Positions 1-7,740 of a stretch of 23,275 nt of DNA are shown here, piece after piece. The notes below the pieces were generated by a model that saw only the letters and a program-made list of their open reading frames with translations, searched no databases and was not told the DNA's origin. A program made the translations under genes and the position numbers. Position 1 is the first letter of the stretch. Each line of letters opens with the position of its first letter. Source of the DNA: a virus; the IMG/VR virus record IMGVR_UViG_3300009180_000221, positions 1 to 23,275 of that record. One strand, given 5' to 3'.

Positions 1-607
1 GAGCCTCAATAGTCTCATCTGTTGCGTCTGTGTTTCTGCAGAATTTCTCTATTGCCTGTTGTCTAGCATAGATGTAATCTGCATCAATCTCATTCTTAAG
101 TGATGTAACCGGAGTCAATGGATTGGCACCCCATGAAGTAAGTGAGCTGCCCTCATACAATTTAACCTCAGTAATCTCATACCATCCCTTAGATGGAGTA
201 TTCATGTAGTCTTCATAAGATTGTAGCTGATTCTGTTTAACCGTCTTAAATCCGATTGAATGCTCAGTGATCAGTCCTGACTCTACCATCTTAATGAAGT
301 CCTGCCCTAGTGTATGTGTACCTATCTGACTCTCATATTTCAATCCCATTGCATCCTCCTTAAGTGAAGTAAGCTTGCCTAATGGCTGAGATGAGTCATG
401 ATTGATTAAATGCTTTATTCTAGGTTGAGCACTGTTAGGCCCCTGCTCTCTGATGGTTTTAGTAAAGGCTCCTTTGCGGATAATATCCCCATCACTATCG
501 ACATTGTCAAAGTGTGAGAAATAACCTTGTATTATACCTTTCTTAGGATCAGCATTAACTACCTCTCCTCCTATCACTACATCCTTAAATTTGATTATAC
601 TTTCCAC
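1..607 (-). CDS. HK97-type prohead protease, C-terminus cut by the left edge
   Basis: About 202 codons are open from 607 to the left edge without a stop; the C-terminal end lies outside the window. The product resembles the serine protease (peptidase family S78/U35) that cleaves scaffold and capsid N-termini during prohead maturation. Visible family features are the strand GYFSHFDNVDSDGDIIRKGA near residues 28-47, the segment HLINHD (catalytic His region) and EHSIGFK (catalytic Ser region). The start chosen is GTG at 607, because an in-frame TAA lies 12 bases upstream and no ATG fits. It lies 31 bases downstream of the Mu F-like gene. The usual neighbour, a major capsid gene, should follow beyond the left edge. 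The family call is confident; the exact start is less so. Confidence 0.88.
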   Translation of the reverse strand, partial: MESIIKFKDVVIGGEVVNADPKKGIIQGYFSHFDNVDSDGDIIRKGAFTKTIREQGPNSAQPRIKHLINHDSSQPLGKLTSLKEDAMGLKYESQIGTHTLGQDFIKMVESGLITEHSIGFKTVKQNQLQSYEDYMNTPSKGWYEITEVKLYEGSSLTSWGANPLTPVTSLKNEIDADYIYARQQAIEKFCRNTDATDETIEA

Positions 608-638
608 AATATAAAGTTAATATATTTTTATTAATAAA

Positions 639-1412
639 TTATACTCTTCTAATTAATTTCCCATTAGCATCTCTTCTAGCCCTAAACCCTACAGCACATC
701 TGCAGTTCACTACCTGGTCAGCCGGTACACTCAATCCGTTAGGCTGTTGCCTTGCTCCTGGCTGCATCATTTCAACTGTGCCACTAGCTAGACTGAATGG
801 CTCATCAATAGGTAGCTTTGTTCCGTTCACTATCAGATGATCCTGTCTCGTTCTGTTATCTGTTGCTGCAATCCAAATCTTATCCATTACATTTATTGAT
901 GTCTGAGCATATATCATGGCTGCTCCATTAGCAGCCGTTACCGTCTCAGTCCTAGCAATCCTCCGAGCTCTCATGCCTCCTAGCTCAGAGCTAGCTGTCA
1001 GCTGTCTCACTATCTCATCTATACTCCATCCCTGCACAGCTGCCTCCTGCAATATCCTGACAATAACCTGTCTAGTGTATTCTGTTATTCCCTGAGCATC
1101 ATTAAGCAAGTCTATGCCGTAGTATTGCTGCATCAGCTGTACTATCTGTTCATTAAATGACATTTGCCCCATTGCCTTCTCGTTTGTATCCATCCTTACC
1201 ATCCTTGCCCATTGTGGCCCTACAGTTGTGTATAGTTCTAGCAGCACCTCATAGATGGGAAATGCAGGCACCGACATTATATCCTGTGTCTTTATAAATG
1301 CATTAACCTGAATAGTCAGAGCTTTCTGAAATTTCTTAGTAAAGAGATTTTCTTTCTTTAACTGGAACTGATGCCATGTCTTACTATATTGCTGCTGCTC
1401 CTGACTTGTCAT
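639..1412 (-). CDS. Mu F-like phage head morphogenesis protein
   Basis: This 257-residue protein is a minor head protein of the Mu gpF/SPP1 gp7 type, which associates with the portal and helps build the procapsid. The C-terminal half carries the family signature: RIARTETVTAANGAAM near residues 150-165, the segment DNRTRQDH, and a closing VVNCRC motif before the basic C-terminus RARRDANGKLIRRV. The N-terminal half is helical and poorly conserved, as is usual. It sits between the portal and prohead protease genes, the standard position. Its start overlaps the preceding 64-residue ORF by 29 bases. The family assignment rests on the recognised motif pattern; no catalytic role is claimed. Confidence 0.88.
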   Translation of the reverse strand: MTSQEQQQYSKTWHQFQLKKENLFTKKFQKALTIQVNAFIKTQDIMSVPAFPIYEVLLELYTTVGPQWARMVRMDTNEKAMGQMSFNEQIVQLMQQYYGIDLLNDAQGITEYTRQVIVRILQEAAVQGWSIDEIVRQLTASSELGGMRARRIARTETVTAANGAAMIYAQTSINVMDKIWIAATDNRTRQDHLIVNGTKLPIDEPFSLASGTVEMMQPGARQQPNGLSVPADQVVNCRCAVGFRARRDANGKLIRRV

Positions 1413-1578
1413 GTGTCTGTAGTGTGTTGATTATTTTGACTAGCACTTGTTCTCTTCTCCATTCAACCCTCTGCCTCTTGATGGGGCATGATGGTAATGG
1501 TAACTCTGTTAAAAGAGTCATGTTAATCTTTTTATTGATTGCCGTTGCTATCTCTTCTATGCTCTTTTCGTTATTCAC
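1384..1578 (-). CDS. small hypothetical protein between portal and Mu F-like gene
   Basis: A 64-residue ORF starting with GTG and overlapping the portal stop by 8 bases (GTGAATAA). The same 8-base overlap geometry occurs between the genes ending at 4876 and starting at 4883, which supports its being real. It overlaps the next gene by 29 bases. The sequence begins MNNEKSIEEIATAINKKIN, has a basic centre (RQRVEWRREQVLVKI), and shows no membrane segment or recognised domain. Function unknown. A later start at an internal ATG (MTLLTEL) is possible. Confidence 0.6.
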   Translation of the reverse strand: MNNEKSIEEIATAINKKINMTLLTELPLPSCPIKRQRVEWRREQVLVKIINTLQTHDKSGAAAI

Positions 1579-2902
1579 CTGGTACCGGTATATTGATTGC
1601 CACTAAACCTAAATCAGATAATAATTGTTTTCCTGAGTCTATTATTATTGAGTCCATCAATGGATCATCTAGCTCCTCGAAATCTTGGATGTCTCTCTTC
1701 TCATTCGGAGTGATCCACCACATAGCTGACAATGCATCCGCTTGCATCTTCATATCCTCCTGCAGTGCAGGTATATCTGATAAGTCTATCTCAATCGTTC
1801 TTTTAATATTATCATTGTATAATGGAGTAATGCCGGTTAAGATGGCATCCTTAAGTAGATAGATATTCGGTAATATCGAATTTGTGTACAGCATCTTAAG
1901 AGCTGTGTTCATGTTGTTAAATGTGCTGCTGTCCTGATTATTAAGTAATATCTCAGGCACTTTGTAAGCATTACAAAGCTTTGTAAAGTCCACCCCTGAT
2001 AAGTTACTCACATCTAAATCAGCTAAACTTAATCCCATCTTAAGATAGCCCATCTCACCAGCTGCAAAATAAGGAGCTCCCTTATTGCTGCTGTTGCGTA
2101 GATAGGATGCAAAATCATTCTTTCTCTGTCCTAGTGACTCGATAGCATAGTCAGACTTCTCGTACACAATACCAGGCACGCCACCGTTCTGCATCTGTGC
2201 CACTGAGGCATCCATACCGGCATTGAGTCTCGTTATTCTCTTACTAAGCACATACAATGGAGATAAGCCCCTCCACTGCAATCCATTGGTAATGGTAGGA
2301 TTGTAATACTTTACATGGATAATCTCATCTGTTGTGAAGGTACCATCATAACCAAAATCAAAGTACTTATAACCTGCCACTCTTTGTGGGAATGAGTCTG
2401 TAATGATTACAGTTATATTCTGACTGTTTAATGCATGCAATATAACCTTACCTCTGTTAGGCCCTAGCTCAATGACTTCTTTATATAGGAATAACTCACC
2501 TGTAATGTACAGCAGTGAGTAGTATTTTATCTTATCCTCATAAGTGATGGATTCTAGGAACTGAACAAACTTATCTTTGTCAGGTAAATCCATCATAGCT
2601 TTACGCTTGTAGTACTTACCTAAAATGCTATTCTGTGAATGCTTTTTATATTGCTTCATGGAATTATCCTGCACTACCTCGTATCCATACCATTCAACTC
2701 TAGCCGCTGTGTCTGCAAGTAATGAGATGATAGAGTAAACATCATCTACATTTGTGTATGTGTCAATATTCTCCAGTGTCTGCCACGTTGGGAATATTGC
2801 TGTACTTAGATTGATTGATGCTGATGTTGTTGACCTGGTCTGTAGTGCCTTCTCTTGCTTTACTTTAGTTTTCTTACCAAAGATTCTATCCATTATTCCC
2901 AT
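1571..2902 (-). CDS. HK97-family portal protein
   Basis: The portal forms the dodecameric ring at the capsid vertex through which the terminase pumps DNA. The open frame can be read from a TTG at 2908, but the ATG at 2902 is preferred because MGIMDRIFGKK matches the usual start of HK97-type portals. An ATG at 2893 is also possible. Typical portal features follow: an early variable region, VYSIISLLADTAARVEWYGY (helical wing start), IIHVKYYNP, GLSPLYVLSKRI and a late helix before PEILLNNQDSSTF. About 443 residues is a normal size. It overlaps the large terminase stop by 17 bases and lies between terminase and head morphogenesis genes, as expected. Confidence 0.93.
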   Translation of the reverse strand: MGIMDRIFGKKTKVKQEKALQTRSTTSASINLSTAIFPTWQTLENIDTYTNVDDVYSIISLLADTAARVEWYGYEVVQDNSMKQYKKHSQNSILGKYYKRKAMMDLPDKDKFVQFLESITYEDKIKYYSLLYITGELFLYKEVIELGPNRGKVILHALNSQNITVIITDSFPQRVAGYKYFDFGYDGTFTTDEIIHVKYYNPTITNGLQWRGLSPLYVLSKRITRLNAGMDASVAQMQNGGVPGIVYEKSDYAIESLGQRKNDFASYLRNSSNKGAPYFAAGEMGYLKMGLSLADLDVSNLSGVDFTKLCNAYKVPEILLNNQDSSTFNNMNTALKMLYTNSILPNIYLLKDAILTGITPLYNDNIKRTIEIDLSDIPALQEDMKMQADALSAMWWITPNEKRDIQDFEELDDPLMDSIIIDSGKQLLSDLGLVAINIPVPGE

Positions 2903-4397
2903 ATGCAAATACCATTTTAGGTTTTAATTCAAATATCTCTCTCATCATAAACATGTCCATAAGATCCGGCGAATCCCCTCCGAGCTTCACCTTCATCTCA
3001 TCCTTTCCTATTATCTTTAATTTACCGTCATTGTCAGCCTTATCCCTTCGGATGGCCTTTCTCTCAAATAGGAATCTTTGCCTCACCGTCTGACTCTGAT
3101 CGTACATCTTATCAGCCACTCTCTTACTTATCTTCATCTCTCCTCTAGCCACCCTGTCACCTGTCCTGTAGTAACATTGTGTCTTTAGGTTGAAGTAGTT
3201 TTCTTTTATCAGCCTACCTGATGTCTCATCCTTAATTGGCATCGGTGTAGCTCCACCATTAAATGGTACAGCACCGCTAATAAATCCATCTATGTAAGAG
3301 CCTACGCCATCACTGTCATAACAAATATACCTATTTTCTACTGAATATCTACGAGCCATGTTAGAGATTAATTCTATAACCTGCTTGCCGTCACTCTTAT
3401 CCATGATCTCAATGTCCATCAACTCCATGCCTTCCCAATATCCTACCACTAGCTTATTACTGCCCTTCATGGCTATATCAGCTGTAATGTAACGCCCTAC
3501 ATGATTGACATTAGACAGATTCTCAAACATGCCCATAAATGGCTCGTGCTCATAAACATCATTAGGCGAATTGCTGACTTTCCATCTGCCCTCCAGTAAT
3601 GTCCGCCTAGTGTCTTCGTCTTGGGATAATAAGTTACCTGGATAAGATGGATCTCCCTCCAGTCCTTTTTTGTTATCGTATATGCTGCCACTTACAAAGG
3701 TGATAGATTTTATAAAGTCTTTAGCATTGAGTCCTGACTGCTCTATCATTGGAGCAATGATGTGCCTAGCCTTCTCTTCTACCTCCTCATAACTATCTCC
3801 CCATATGTATGAATCACCGTACTTTATAAAGTATCTGAGCTTACCTCTTCTTTCTAGTATTGGATAGCCTGTGTCCTTATCTATCCACCACTCTACAAGC
3901 TTAAACACCCAGCTCTCAGGATCAGGATTGCACGTTGCCCTAACATAAGGCTTAACACCACAGCTGCTACGATTCCTACTAAGCAAATAAAAGAACATGC
4001 TCTCAGTAAAGTGAGTAAGCTCATCAAAGCCGAGAAAAGGAATCTGGGAGCCCTGCCAATCATATTTATTTTTCTCATATTCGAGATGTCTAAATGATAG
4101 CTTTGCTCCTGATGGGAATTTCCAGTCTAGTGATGACTCTCTAGGCTCTGCTCCGACTGATTGGTAAAGCTTCAATGACGTGTCCCATAGTCCGCCCTCG
4201 TTCCTGATCTGCACAGATGTGCGTCTAAATATTACCCCTCCAAAGTCTGCTATCTTAATGTGTCTCAATGGATCTAGCAACAGAGCAAACGTCTTACCCA
4301 CAAAAGCAGCTGCCCCACCGATTACAATATCTGCAGGGCTGCTCAGTGCTATCTGTTGGTAGCCTGGTTGTGGGGCTATATAGTCTAGTTTTCTAAT
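2886..4397 (-). CDS. terL: terminase large subunit, no canonical start codon
   Basis: The packaging motor ATPase and nuclease. The N-terminal ATPase shows a Walker A-like GGAAAFVGKT and a Walker B-like segment IPFLGFDELTHF. The C-terminal RNase H-fold nuclease is suggested by YITADIAMKGS, CYDSDGVGSYIDG and the late GDSPDLMDMF. The odd point is the start. The first GTG (4301) lies inside Walker A and cannot be right. The frame stays open upstream to a TAA at 4407-4409, and the extra residues NFIRKLDYIAPQPGYQ look like a normal terminase N-terminus. No ATG, GTG or TTG exists there. ATT at 4397 is used here as the best guess; ATA at 4406 overlaps the small terminase stop, and CTG at 4346 is internal. 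A sequencing error is also possible. Confidence 0.9.
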   Translation of the reverse strand: MRKLDYIAPQPGYQQIALSSPADIVIGGAAAFVGKTFALLLDPLRHIKIADFGGVIFRRTSVQIRNEGGLWDTSLKLYQSVGAEPRESSLDWKFPSGAKLSFRHLEYEKNKYDWQGSQIPFLGFDELTHFTESMFFYLLSRNRSSCGVKPYVRATCNPDPESWVFKLVEWWIDKDTGYPILERRGKLRYFIKYGDSYIWGDSYEEVEEKARHIIAPMIEQSGLNAKDFIKSITFVSGSIYDNKKGLEGDPSYPGNLLSQDEDTRRTLLEGRWKVSNSPNDVYEHEPFMGMFENLSNVNHVGRYITADIAMKGSNKLVVGYWEGMELMDIEIMDKSDGKQVIELISNMARRYSVENRYICYDSDGVGSYIDGFISGAVPFNGGATPMPIKDETSGRLIKENYFNLKTQCYYRTGDRVARGEMKISKRVADKMYDQSQTVRQRFLFERKAIRRDKADNDGKLKIIGKDEMKVKLGGDSPDLMDMFMMREIFELKPKMVFAYGNNG

Positions 4398-4402
4398 AAA
4401 GT

Positions 4403-4693
4403 TTATTTATAGATAAGCTCTCCATCTCTACCATTATCAGGAAGTTGTATTATCTGCACTTGCTCTACTACTGATGTCATATCAATCTCAATGTTATCCT
4501 TTGGATTGCCGATTGCATGGCCCCATGCAAACTTAATAAGTGCAGGCTCACCACTATTCAATAGGAATTTTAGGCCCTCTGTTATGGAGCCGTATTGCTC
4601 CTCGATGGCCTTAATAGCCATTTCTCTGATGCCGTATTCCTCAGCATAAGACTTCCTGCCGGCTCCTGGTCTATATCCGCCTTTACCTGCCAT
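4403..4693 (-). CDS. terS: putative terminase small subunit
   Basis: A 96-residue protein directly before the large terminase. The N-terminal GGYRPGAGRKSY matches the basic start common in small terminase-like DNA-binding proteins of Bacteroidota phages. Residues 20-60 are helical (MAIKAIEEQYGSITEGLKFL) and could be the DNA-binding and oligomerisation part. Small terminases recognise the packaging site and hand DNA to the large subunit. The assignment relies on position, size and the N-terminal motif; sequence conservation in this family is weak. The stop at 4403 is a few bases from the presumed start of the large subunit, so coupled translation is likely. Confidence 0.72.
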   Translation of the reverse strand: MAGKGGYRPGAGRKSYAEEYGIREMAIKAIEEQYGSITEGLKFLLNSGEPALIKFAWGHAIGNPKDNIEIDMTSVVEQVQIIQLPDNGRDGELIYK

Positions 4694-4716
4694 ATCAATG
4701 ATTTTTATCGATTATT

Positions 4717-4724
4717 CAAAGTTA
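4717..4724 (-). promoter_or_regulatory. candidate -7 box upstream of small terminase
   Basis: TAACTTTG on the minus strand fits the Bacteroidota -7 consensus TAnnTTTG and lies 23 bases before the small terminase ATG. It overlaps the stop codon of the preceding 53-residue gene. No TTTG or TTG is present at the expected -33 distance, so this is only a weak candidate, perhaps read by another sigma factor. Confidence 0.25.
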
Positions 4725-4883
4725 GTATTTTTTCTTATAAACCTCTGACGTAATTTTAAGCGAATTAAGACGTCTAAATTCTTTGGAAAGGCTTTCCATC
4801 AATTCAATCCTTAAAGTCAAAGGAATGTGGATTAAAATGCGTCTAATGTCATTCTTTAGTAGTTCTTTGTTCTCATTATTCAT
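4722..4883 (-). CDS. small hypothetical protein (53 aa)
   Basis: A short ORF starting with ATG at 4883 and overlapping the stop of the preceding gene by 8 bases (ATGAATAA), which supports coupled translation. The product MNNENKELLKNDIRRILIHI... is charged and helical, with IPLTLRIELMESLSKEFRRL in the middle and a lysine-rich end (YKKKY). No recognised domain. Its position right before the small terminase suggests a packaging or regulatory accessory role, which is inference only. Confidence 0.6.
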   Translation of the reverse strand: MNNENKELLKNDIRRILIHIPLTLRIELMESLSKEFRRLNSLKITSEVYKKKY

Positions 4884-5238
4884 AAATGTATCTGTTTTTA
4901 TGTTTTTTTAGATGGTATCTAGCATTCATTGGGACTTTCTCAATGCTCTTAGCAAATTCTTTAATGGATGTCCATTTCTCACCGGTAAGCTTGTCTGTGA
5001 TGGTTTTCTTAGTCACATACTTACAGCCCCATGTCTTTAGTTTCTCACCATTGCAAATCAAATGGTAAATTACTCTAGTATTTCTGTAACGTTCATCCAT
5101 TAGAACAACAGCCTCCTCAGGAGTAACCGTTGTGGATGTGAACTGGTAAATCAGATTGTTGCAGTTTGACTTCACAGTGTATCTGTAAATCTTTCTGCCA
5201 AACCACAAGCTTTTATCATTATTATCGTAAGTACGCAT
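4876..5238 (-). CDS. hypothetical protein with possible NUMOD-like C-terminal module
   Basis: A 120-residue basic protein preceded by an A-rich leader (AGAAAAAATGCG). The C-terminal third, TGEKWTSIKEFAKSIEKVP then ARYHLKKHKNRYIYE, resembles the short helix-turn-helix NUMOD1-type modules seen in homing endonucleases and related phage proteins (a token for residues to be looked up, an amphipathic helix, a second basic helix). No nuclease motif is present. It is the first gene after the ATCGAT-rich dyad and so may be the first gene of the packaging/head transcript. The domain suggestion is low confidence; the gene itself is well supported. Confidence 0.65.
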   Translation of the reverse strand: MRTYDNNDKSLWFGRKIYRYTVKSNCNNLIYQFTSTTVTPEEAVVLMDERYRNTRVIYHLICNGEKLKTWGCKYVTKKTITDKLTGEKWTSIKEFAKSIEKVPMNARYHLKKHKNRYIYE

Positions 5239-5295
5239 TTTTTCTGTTTCTTATTTATATATATATATATTTTATTACTATAGAGAAAAAGTATA

Positions 5296-5368
5296 AAAAA
5301 TCGATACTATCGATACTACGACATATTAACTCATTGATTATCAATGCTTATGAATAGTATCGATTTTT
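5296..5368. repeat. ATCGAT-rich dyad with tandem repeat, candidate origin or regulatory site
   Basis: A perfect 15-bp inverted repeat (AAAAATCGATACTAT at 5296-5310, its complement at 5354-5368) encloses 43 bases. The left arm begins a tandem direct repeat, ATCGATACT at 5300-5308 and 5309-5317. Inside the loop is a second dyad, CATTGA-TTA-TCAATG at 5332-5346. Further ATCGAT copies follow at about 5395 and in the primase-helicase tail near 5487 and 5496. The flanking stretch 5239-5295 is almost pure AT. The site sits between the primase-helicase and packaging genes. It could be a replication origin, a repressor-binding region, or a transcription end on the minus strand, where a T-run follows. 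Confidence 0.6.
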
Positions 5369-5385
5369 AAATAAATCGGTCTTTT

Positions 5386-7740
5386 TTAGAATAAATCGAT
5401 ATTATCGGTAATAATTTCGGTATATCCATTAGATTTAATTGTAATCTTAAACTCCTTTAACCCATTATTTTGTAGATTTTTCCTATCGATAAAATCGATT
5501 TCTAAAGTTTTATAACCAATTTCTAACCCTTTTTTGAATCTTTTTATTGAATAATCTTTCCTATCAAGCTCGTATTTTGCCAAAAATCCTTTCCATTCAT
5601 CATTCAAATTGAGCCATTGATTAGGATAATTTTCAATCATATTGTCAATATAATCTAGCATATCCTCACCGAATTGCTGTTTAATTTGTTTGCGTTTTAA
5701 CTTGTCAGAATTACCAACCTGTTGCACTCCTTTATTAAGATAATACTTCACACAATAGAATAGAAAATTATAGAATTTCTGCCACTCATCATTATCCCAG
5801 TCATCAAATAGCTTGTGTCCAAAGTGATCAATGGGTGTAAATTTAGAGCTAAAAAATGGAGCAAATTCTAGTACTCTTTGTCTACGTTTAGCATGCTCTG
5901 CATTACTAGCAATACTATAATTAGTAGTAAATGATATTTTAGGAGATTCAGCATAGCTTAAGAATAGCTCATCCTGATTCTTTTTCTCTACTGTCATACC
6001 TTCTGTAATAGTTGGATAATACTTCTCAAAATCTACGTTCTTAGGGCAATCTTCAATCACTACCATCTTTGTTCCTAAGCTAACACGCTGAAATGCAAAA
6101 GTCTTATCAGGTCTGAAATTCTTTCCATCTATTCTAACTGTAGGAATCAATTTACTAACTGCCTGAAAGAATATCCCTTTACCAGTTCCGCCACCTTTAG
6201 CCTCATCATCAGTCTCCTCAGCTAAGATTGGAGCAAATGGCTTGGATGGATCCTTATAGCTATGCAGAATGTAACCTATTAACGATATTGCATAGTTTAT
6301 ACGTTCTAAATCATCCCCTGATATCTTACAGATAAATTCATAATAATCGCATCCAATGGGAGCAAAATCACGATTTACATAGACATCAAAGTCAATAATT
6401 TGAGACTCCCATATAGCCTGGTCAATGCCTCCATAATTAATAACCTCAATCTTATCTTTAGTGATTGTTACGATGCCATTACGGAATGGGAAATAACATT
6501 TGTTTGCTTCATCATGCAGGATCTTAACGTCTGACCTCTCAATATATTCAAAGAATGAATCTGTAAAGATTGAATTGGTTTGCTTTATAATTGCCTCCAT
6601 TACATCTATATGACCGGCTTCAATAAGCTTCTTTTTTATAAATTTCTTTATATTCTCAGGGAATACTTCTCTTACTTTCTTATTGTCAATCTGAATAAGC
6701 CTGTAAATACCTGACTTAGCATCATGGAAATAAAGCTGAAACTGATGTGAGTATAACCATTCCAATAGCTGATATTTTTGTATAGTAACGCCACCATTAC
6801 GGTTATATGTCCAAAACCATCCATCAGTATTTTTTGTGCCGTAAATATCTGATAGCTGTTTAGCTGCCTTTTTATAATCGTTGCCACATTCTAGCATAGC
6901 ATAAACACCGAAAGGATTATATCCTTTGTTCTCGAACTGCGAACTGGTAGTGTGTACATAAAATATCCTAGTATCAGTGAAAAAAACTGCAGATGTTGCA
7001 CTGGTAGTGTTACCTGGTCTTAGAAATAGAATCTTGTTTCCTGATTCTATAACTTTAGTCCATCCATGCTTCTCTAGTAGTGCCACAACATCACCTCTTT
7101 TATTATAATCATCCCAAGTAGTAAGCTTGTCATTATTATGAGCAATGATAGGCTGTTTAACCTCTTCAATTATCTGATTAAATTCTCTAGCACAGCTGAG
7201 CAGTGTATCTCGTTCATCTGAACTGATAATAGGTATCTCATTAATTTGATATGGCTGATATCCTGCAGATGGAGGAGCCACTACATAGCCGCCCTCACCT
7301 CTTGTCTCAATAAGTACACATTGCTTTATGTTAGGATTGTTGTTCAGCTCATCATCATTAGCAGGGCGTTCTGCAAGCTTTTGATTTCCTTCTATGAATT
7401 CGCATCTATAGTAAATATGGTAGCCGTTTGACTTAGTCTCAACTATTAATAATTTAGAGTAGAGCACAGGATTAGCATTGATAATCTTATCAGCATAGTG
7501 ATTGAAGTTTACACCATACTTGCAATCTACGTCTATTATCTCTAGGTTGCCACTTACTGCACCGGCAATGACTGCAATTCCCTGAGCCTTAGGATTGTTA
7601 AACATTAAAGACAGCTGATCATCACTGGCTATATTAGATTGATATTGTTTCCATTGTCCGATGGATCTCTTTGAGCTATCAGTTGAGATTACTGATAATC
7701 CTTTGCTCTTGTATTTGAGTGCCGATTGTAATAAGTTCAT
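5386..7740 (-). CDS. primase-polymerase / SF3 helicase fusion
   Basis: A 784-residue replication protein. The N-terminus looks like an archaeo-eukaryotic primase-type prim-pol domain: LEIIDVDCK (metal-binding D70, D72), GYHIYYR at 106-112, and ETRGEGGYVVAPPS at 145-158. A middle region (about 210-300) resembles the linker found in related phage primases. The C-terminus is a superfamily 3/D5-like helicase with Walker A GGGTGKG (516-522), Walker B MVVIEDCPK (559-567) and an SFTTN sensor segment. Such proteins prime and unwind DNA at the origin. The start overlaps the VRR-NUC gene by 62 bases; no later Met fits the conserved N-terminus (LQSALKYKSKGLSVIS), so the overlap is probably real. The ATCGAT dyad lies immediately downstream. 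Confidence 0.88.
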   Translation of the reverse strand: MNLLQSALKYKSKGLSVISTDSSKRSIGQWKQYQSNIASDDQLSLMFNNPKAQGIAVIAGAVSGNLEIIDVDCKYGVNFNHYADKIINANPVLYSKLLIVETKSNGYHIYYRCEFIEGNQKLAERPANDDELNNNPNIKQCVLIETRGEGGYVVAPPSAGYQPYQINEIPIISSDERDTLLSCAREFNQIIEEVKQPIIAHNNDKLTTWDDYNKRGDVVALLEKHGWTKVIESGNKILFLRPGNTTSATSAVFFTDTRIFYVHTTSSQFENKGYNPFGVYAMLECGNDYKKAAKQLSDIYGTKNTDGWFWTYNRNGGVTIQKYQLLEWLYSHQFQLYFHDAKSGIYRLIQIDNKKVREVFPENIKKFIKKKLIEAGHIDVMEAIIKQTNSIFTDSFFEYIERSDVKILHDEANKCYFPFRNGIVTITKDKIEVINYGGIDQAIWESQIIDFDVYVNRDFAPIGCDYYEFICKISGDDLERINYAISLIGYILHSYKDPSKPFAPILAEETDDEAKGGGTGKGIFFQAVSKLIPTVRIDGKNFRPDKTFAFQRVSLGTKMVVIEDCPKNVDFEKYYPTITEGMTVEKKNQDELFLSYAESPKISFTTNYSIASNAEHAKRRQRVLEFAPFFSSKFTPIDHFGHKLFDDWDNDEWQKFYNFLFYCVKYYLNKGVQQVGNSDKLKRKQIKQQFGEDMLDYIDNMIENYPNQWLNLNDEWKGFLAKYELDRKDYSIKRFKKGLEIGYKTLEIDFIDRKNLQNNGLKEFKITIKSNGYTEIITDNIDLF

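Follow-up and report, generated by a model that had tools for sequence, protein, structure and literature searches.

A phage large terminase gene that lacks a canonical start codon and may be re-initiated at an ATA overlapping the small terminase stop

Co-directed neighboring genes whose stop and start codons overlap by 4 nt can be translated by termination-reinitiation (PMC6728339, PMC10666635, PMC12548453), which is efficient when the intergenic distance is between about -8 and +6 nt (PMC10666635). In E. coli re-initiation depends on initiator tRNA and IF2, and an excess of IF3, a factor that likewise disfavors non-canonical starts, inhibits it (PMC2268962). Bacteroidota rarely use Shine-Dalgarno (SD) sequences, even at such overlaps (PMC6728339). 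Isoleucine codons also serve as starts in a few bacterial genes; AUA and AUU starts in S. aureus give about 10–30% of AUG, and the infC, ccpN and cvfC1 sites of that species have extended SD motifs (PMC13009471). The junction between the small (TerS) and large (TerL) terminase genes described here has features of both kinds of system.

We analyzed an IMG/VR virus record of 23,275 bases (the window), whose minus strand carries, in order, genes for TerS, TerL, a portal, a Mu F-like head protein and a prohead protease. TerL matches Pfam Terminase_6N (PF03237; 1e-22, 81.3 bits against a cut-off of 22) and phrog_979 (1.7e-91); its translation holds both Walker A (GGAAAFVGKT) and Walker B (FLGFDELTHF) of the ATPase domain, and its C-terminal residues 380–488 match the nuclease of 'Gene 2 protein' (5c10_A / 4idh_A, E 2e-4 to 6e-4). 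TerL relatives are present in Sphingobacteriaceae and Chryseobacterium genomes (Bacteroidota), and the phage group is related to Bacteroidota prophages. TerS has no match in Pfam or PHROGs, and a search with TerS as the query returned the same phage alone; its tail, QIIQLPDNGR, recurs in the gene that relatives have upstream of TerL. In one relative, L080 (IMGVR_UViG_3300009163_003408), the N-terminal part of TerS (MIDALVKSLGVVTTAAKIAGIDRSTHYDWLN...) is unlike that of the others and the C-terminal tail is kept as QIIQIPYNGR, so that the body of TerS may have been swapped and the tail, putatively TerL-binding, retained.

An earlier note on this DNA held that TerL has no ATG, GTG or TTG ahead of its Walker A motif, and this is borne out: the TerL frame is open from the in-frame TAA at 4409–4407 to the stop at 2886, its translation is the INFIRKLDYIAPQPGYQ given in that note, and its first canonical codon is GTG 4301, within Walker A. 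After the TAA the frame reads ATA AAC TTT ATT AGA AAA CTA GAC TAT ATA GCC CCA CAA CCA GGC TAC CAA. The candidates named in the note (ATA 4406, ATT 4397 and CTG 4346) are correct as far as they go, and the list is completed by CTA 4388, ATA 4379, ATA 4352, ATT 4328 and ATC 4322 (Table 1). Since the three canonical codons make up 6.4% of codons inside TerL, 35 codons without any has P = 0.10; the run by itself is thus not improbable, and the oddity is that a conserved gene has no start, as is the case in 3 of the 88 distinct junctions that we compared, the window's included. A gene caller limited to NTG starts would call this TerL from GTG 4301 and lose half of Walker A.

Table 1. Positions of the features of the TerS-TerL region in the window.
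Feature	Position	Strand	Remarks
Small terminase (TerS)	4403..4693	(-)	96 aa, MAGKGGYRPGAGRK...QIIQLPDNGRDGELIYK; stop TAA 4405-4403
Large terminase (TerL)	2886..4406	(-)	506 aa if ATA 4406 is the start; ATPase and nuclease
ATAA: proposed ATA start (4406-4404) over TerS stop TAA (4405-4403), 4-nt overlap	4403..4406	(-)	22 relatives have TTGA here
TAA closing the TerL frame directly before ATA	4407..4409	(-)	Many relatives have TAA, then TTG (TAA TTG A)
ATT, rival start, 5 nt past the TerS stop	4395..4397	(-)	Gives the N-terminal length of L011 (ATG) and L008 (TTG)
CTAG: CTA in TerL frame, TAG in TerS frame (AAC TAG)	4385..4388	(-)	Gap-free alignment with L007/L013
PQPGYQ motif, upstream of Walker A	4356..4373	(-)	Kept in relatives; lost with any start downstream
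Walker A GGAAAFVGKT	4290..4319	(-)	Holds the sole early GTG (4301)

On balance, we favor the reading that TerL is translated by termination-reinitiation from TerS at the near-cognate ATA 4406. TerS and TerL would be translationally coupled through a 4-nt stop/start overlap like that of most relatives with the same relative frame, ATAA taking the place of NTGA. The ribosome would terminate on the TerS TAA and move back one base, and initiator tRNA would re-initiate on AUA with a C-A mismatch at the third position, to give a product that begins (f)M-NFIRKLDYIAPQPGYQ, presumably at a low level relative to TerS. Between ATAA and a standard ATGA there is only one G/A exchange, at 4404, and it is silent for TerS because TGA and TAA are both stops; at a junction of this kind a start can thus erode without harm to the upstream gene. 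The downstream frame is -1 with respect to TerS, as in described 4-nt pairs; the codon at the overlap is ATA and there is no ATG, GTG or TTG within re-initiation range. Measured from the TerS stop, ATA lies at -4, ATT at +5, CTA at +14, CTG at +56 and GTG at +101, and the range of -8 to +6 nt therefore leaves ATA and ATT as candidates. Short overlaps (-4 and -1) are frequent among this phage's gene junctions. Relatives lie in Bacteroidota genomes, where SD sequences are little used. Against ATA, AUA is a weak start: the S. aureus infC, ccpN and cvfC1 cases have an extended SD, whereas here GGAGAG ends 11 nt before ATA 4406, a spacing too long to be ideal, and position -3 is T and not the favored A. 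No notable RNA structure was found at the junction (z = 0.01). A phage-encoded initiator tRNA was considered and rejected, as no tRNA gene lies within the window.

We prefer ATA 4406 chiefly because starts track the TerS stop across relatives. In 55 of the 88 junctions TerL is in the other relative frame and has an ordinary ATG, GTG or TTG start; two have no identifiable TerS, and the remaining 31 share the window's relative frame. (The window's junction is represented by L001. L019, IMGVR_UViG_3300021247_000267, was left out of the count, since its junction lies 44 bases from the contig end and looks corrupted; its bases 1–80 have GTC where relatives have TTG, together with other odd bases, and are probably a poor contig end.) The earlier note suggested looking in relatives for an ATG at the same place, and what is found there is mostly TTG: among the 31, TTG overlaps the TerS TGA by 4 nt (TTGA) in 22, and an ATG overlapping by 1 nt (TAATG) occurs in 5. 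Thus 27 of the 31 start exactly at -4 or -1 relative to the TerS stop, irrespective of the position of that stop, which ranges from -56 to -23 relative to GYQ. One misfit, L074, has its GTG 13 nt ahead of the nominal stop of an upstream ORF that is only putatively TerS. The last three keep the -4 geometry without a canonical start: ATAA in the window, CTGA in L013 and CTAA in L007. Whenever a TAA or TGA stop falls in this frame, NTA or NTG arises at -4, so that ATA there, about a one-in-four outcome, is no signal by itself. Separately, no start is available to TerL more often than TTG: ahead of the GYQ motif, 43 of 80 proteins have this codon and lack ATG, a predominance that seems unusual for a packaging gene.

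An 80-protein TerL tree places the window in a clade with L007, L013, L008, L011, L022, L026 and L028 (support 90/86, under the starred level), in which L007 and L013 are sisters (100/100) and junctions are TTGA, TAATG, CTGA, CTAA, ATAA, or ATG in the other frame. Neither L007 nor L013 has a canonical start before PQPGYQ, the start having apparently eroded to CTAA and CTGA through changes silent for TerS, as is the difference between these two. An ATC 9 nt upstream of their overlap codon was rejected as a start: it is a by-product of the coding of TerS 'PSAN' (CCA TCA GCN AAY), and a TerL-frame TAA separates this ATC from the TTG in TTGA relatives, L002 for instance. If read on past its stop, the window's TerS frame gives T L L E N and reaches AAC TAG exactly where L007 has AAC TAA and L013 has AAC TGA, which suggests that the window's TerS stop was shifted 18 nt upstream and that CTAG is a remnant of an older junction.

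The CTA at -4 in L007 counts against an ATA start, as the -4 geometry may persist for reasons other than starting, and CTA is not known as a start codon. Taken the other way, these junctions permit a broader and quite tentative idea for the clade as a whole: that the upstream stop and not the codon sets the start position, that re-initiating ribosomes accept ATA, CTG and even CTA, and that starts erode by changes silent for TerS. If this is correct, NTAA junctions would be a class of coupled genes that is invisible to annotation programs.

The alternative that survives best, though we think it doubtful, is that TerL starts at ATT 4397, either by short-distance re-initiation or by de novo AUU initiation as in infC and pcnB. 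The resulting N terminus would equal in length those of L011 (ATG) and L008 (TTG), +5 nt falls within the re-initiation range (PMC10666635), and AUU starts have precedent (PMC13009471). However, a start at +5 is found in no same-frame relative, where starts follow the TerS stop (-4 or -1) and not a fixed N-terminal length, and the bases before this ATT are T-rich (ACTTT), with T at -3. The earlier note had raised a rare start and re-initiation after the TerS stop as separate possibilities; together they fit best, with ATA 4406 likelier than ATT by virtue of a 4-nt overlap like that of the relatives' TTG.

The same note also raised an error in the bases. A second contig, IMGVR_UViG_3300027763_001753, the only other one found with this junction in a pattern search, carries it identically and makes an isolated error of sequencing or assembly unlikely; this contig is a distinct assembly, though the two libraries are possibly not independent. 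The two match over 5,793 bases and are identical over 477–5793, with 17 differences, all synonymous and all in 320–476. That ATAA is an error or minority variant of a population whose true junction is ATGA (G at 4404) is accordingly improbable: one base would yield a standard overlap, and ATG or TTG is found in many relatives, but the second contig agrees at the junction and has only synonymous changes elsewhere, and L007 and L013, of a related lineage, show the same loss of a start. The cluster of differences is a curiosity of its own. Against L001/L082, it puts 17 synonymous differences in 157 bases of the prohead protease gene between identical flanks (over 5.3 kb and 319 bases), and it looks like local recombination or mixed assembly.

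A shortened TerL, begun further downstream at CTG 4346 or GTG 4301 or at CTA 4388, is very unlikely. GTG 4301 is the first canonical codon, and CTA 4388 is homologous in place to the CTG of L013 and the CTA of L007; the CTG and GTG starts nevertheless run against selection on the codons that they would leave out. IMG/VR relatives (the closest at 84–88% amino-acid identity) match the TerL frame from about residues 1–10 on. Changes in these codons would be about 79% nonsynonymous under neutrality, yet over the 13 codons D8–A20 the synonymous and nonsynonymous codon differences of the window number 9 and 2 against L022, 5 and 2 against L028, and 5 and 3 against L011, and its differences from L008 between the proposed start and Walker A are mainly synonymous. 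Between L007 and L013 there are 5 synonymous and 1 nonsynonymous codon differences in D8–A20 and 3 and 0 in the ten codons that follow (8 and 1 in total). For TerL, dN/dS against L002 is 0.04, with dS saturated in the other four comparisons. Judged by these codon comparisons, purifying selection acts on the codons that immediately precede Walker A, which are hence translated, so TerL translation would start upstream of them, and starts at CTG 4346 and GTG 4301, which lie 56 and 101 nt beyond the TerS stop, are not credible, as they cost the conserved PQPGYQ or half of Walker A. CTA 4388 is 14 nt from the stop, and CTA is not known to serve as a start codon. Finally, the earlier note named a frameshift among its alternatives. 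A -1 shift at the TerS stop to make a low-level TerS-TerL fusion is the least probable reading of all and is unsupported, for although TerL is in the -1 frame of TerS and a Lys-tRNA paired with AAA could conceivably move onto UAA at the price of one mismatch, there is neither a slippery heptamer nor a homopolymer run, the TerL-frame TAA 4 nt upstream of the TerS stop leaves one codon position for the slip, RNA structure is not notable, and the TAA directly before TTG in relatives argues against it family-wide.

Returning to re-initiation at ATA 4406, we found no direct precedent in the open-licence literature for AUA starts in re-initiation or for a TerL with a non-canonical start. TerS-TerL junctions constitute a natural series of codons (ATG, TTG, CTG, CTA, ATA) in equivalent places at the stop/start site. 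Such a series could help to gauge how far a re-initiating ribosome depends on the identity of the codon in a phylum not reliant on SD pairing.

The window's pair resembles the 4-nt termination-reinitiation pairs of PMC6728339, PMC10666635 and PMC12548453 in its co-directed genes, -1 downstream frame, 4-nt overlap and cooperating products (TerS and TerL). It is unlike them in that the overlap is ATAA and the start would be ATA, whereas those papers give NTG starts only. With the AUU- and AUA-start genes (E. coli infC and pcnB; S. aureus infC, ccpN, citZ and cvfC1), it shares an isoleucine codon as the probable start; however, S. aureus infC, ccpN and cvfC1 have an extended SD, overlap with an upstream stop is mentioned for none of these genes in the accessible part of PMC13009471, and none of the E. 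coli or S. aureus genes is a phage packaging gene, as the window's TerL is. The closest comparison is with relatives' TerS-TerL junctions (TTGA, TAATG), which have the same genes and geometry but start with TTG or ATG, only the window, L007 (CTAA) and L013 (CTGA) being without a canonical start. The ATAA junction, to which a related lineage adds CTGA and CTAA, represents a variant within the -4 class.
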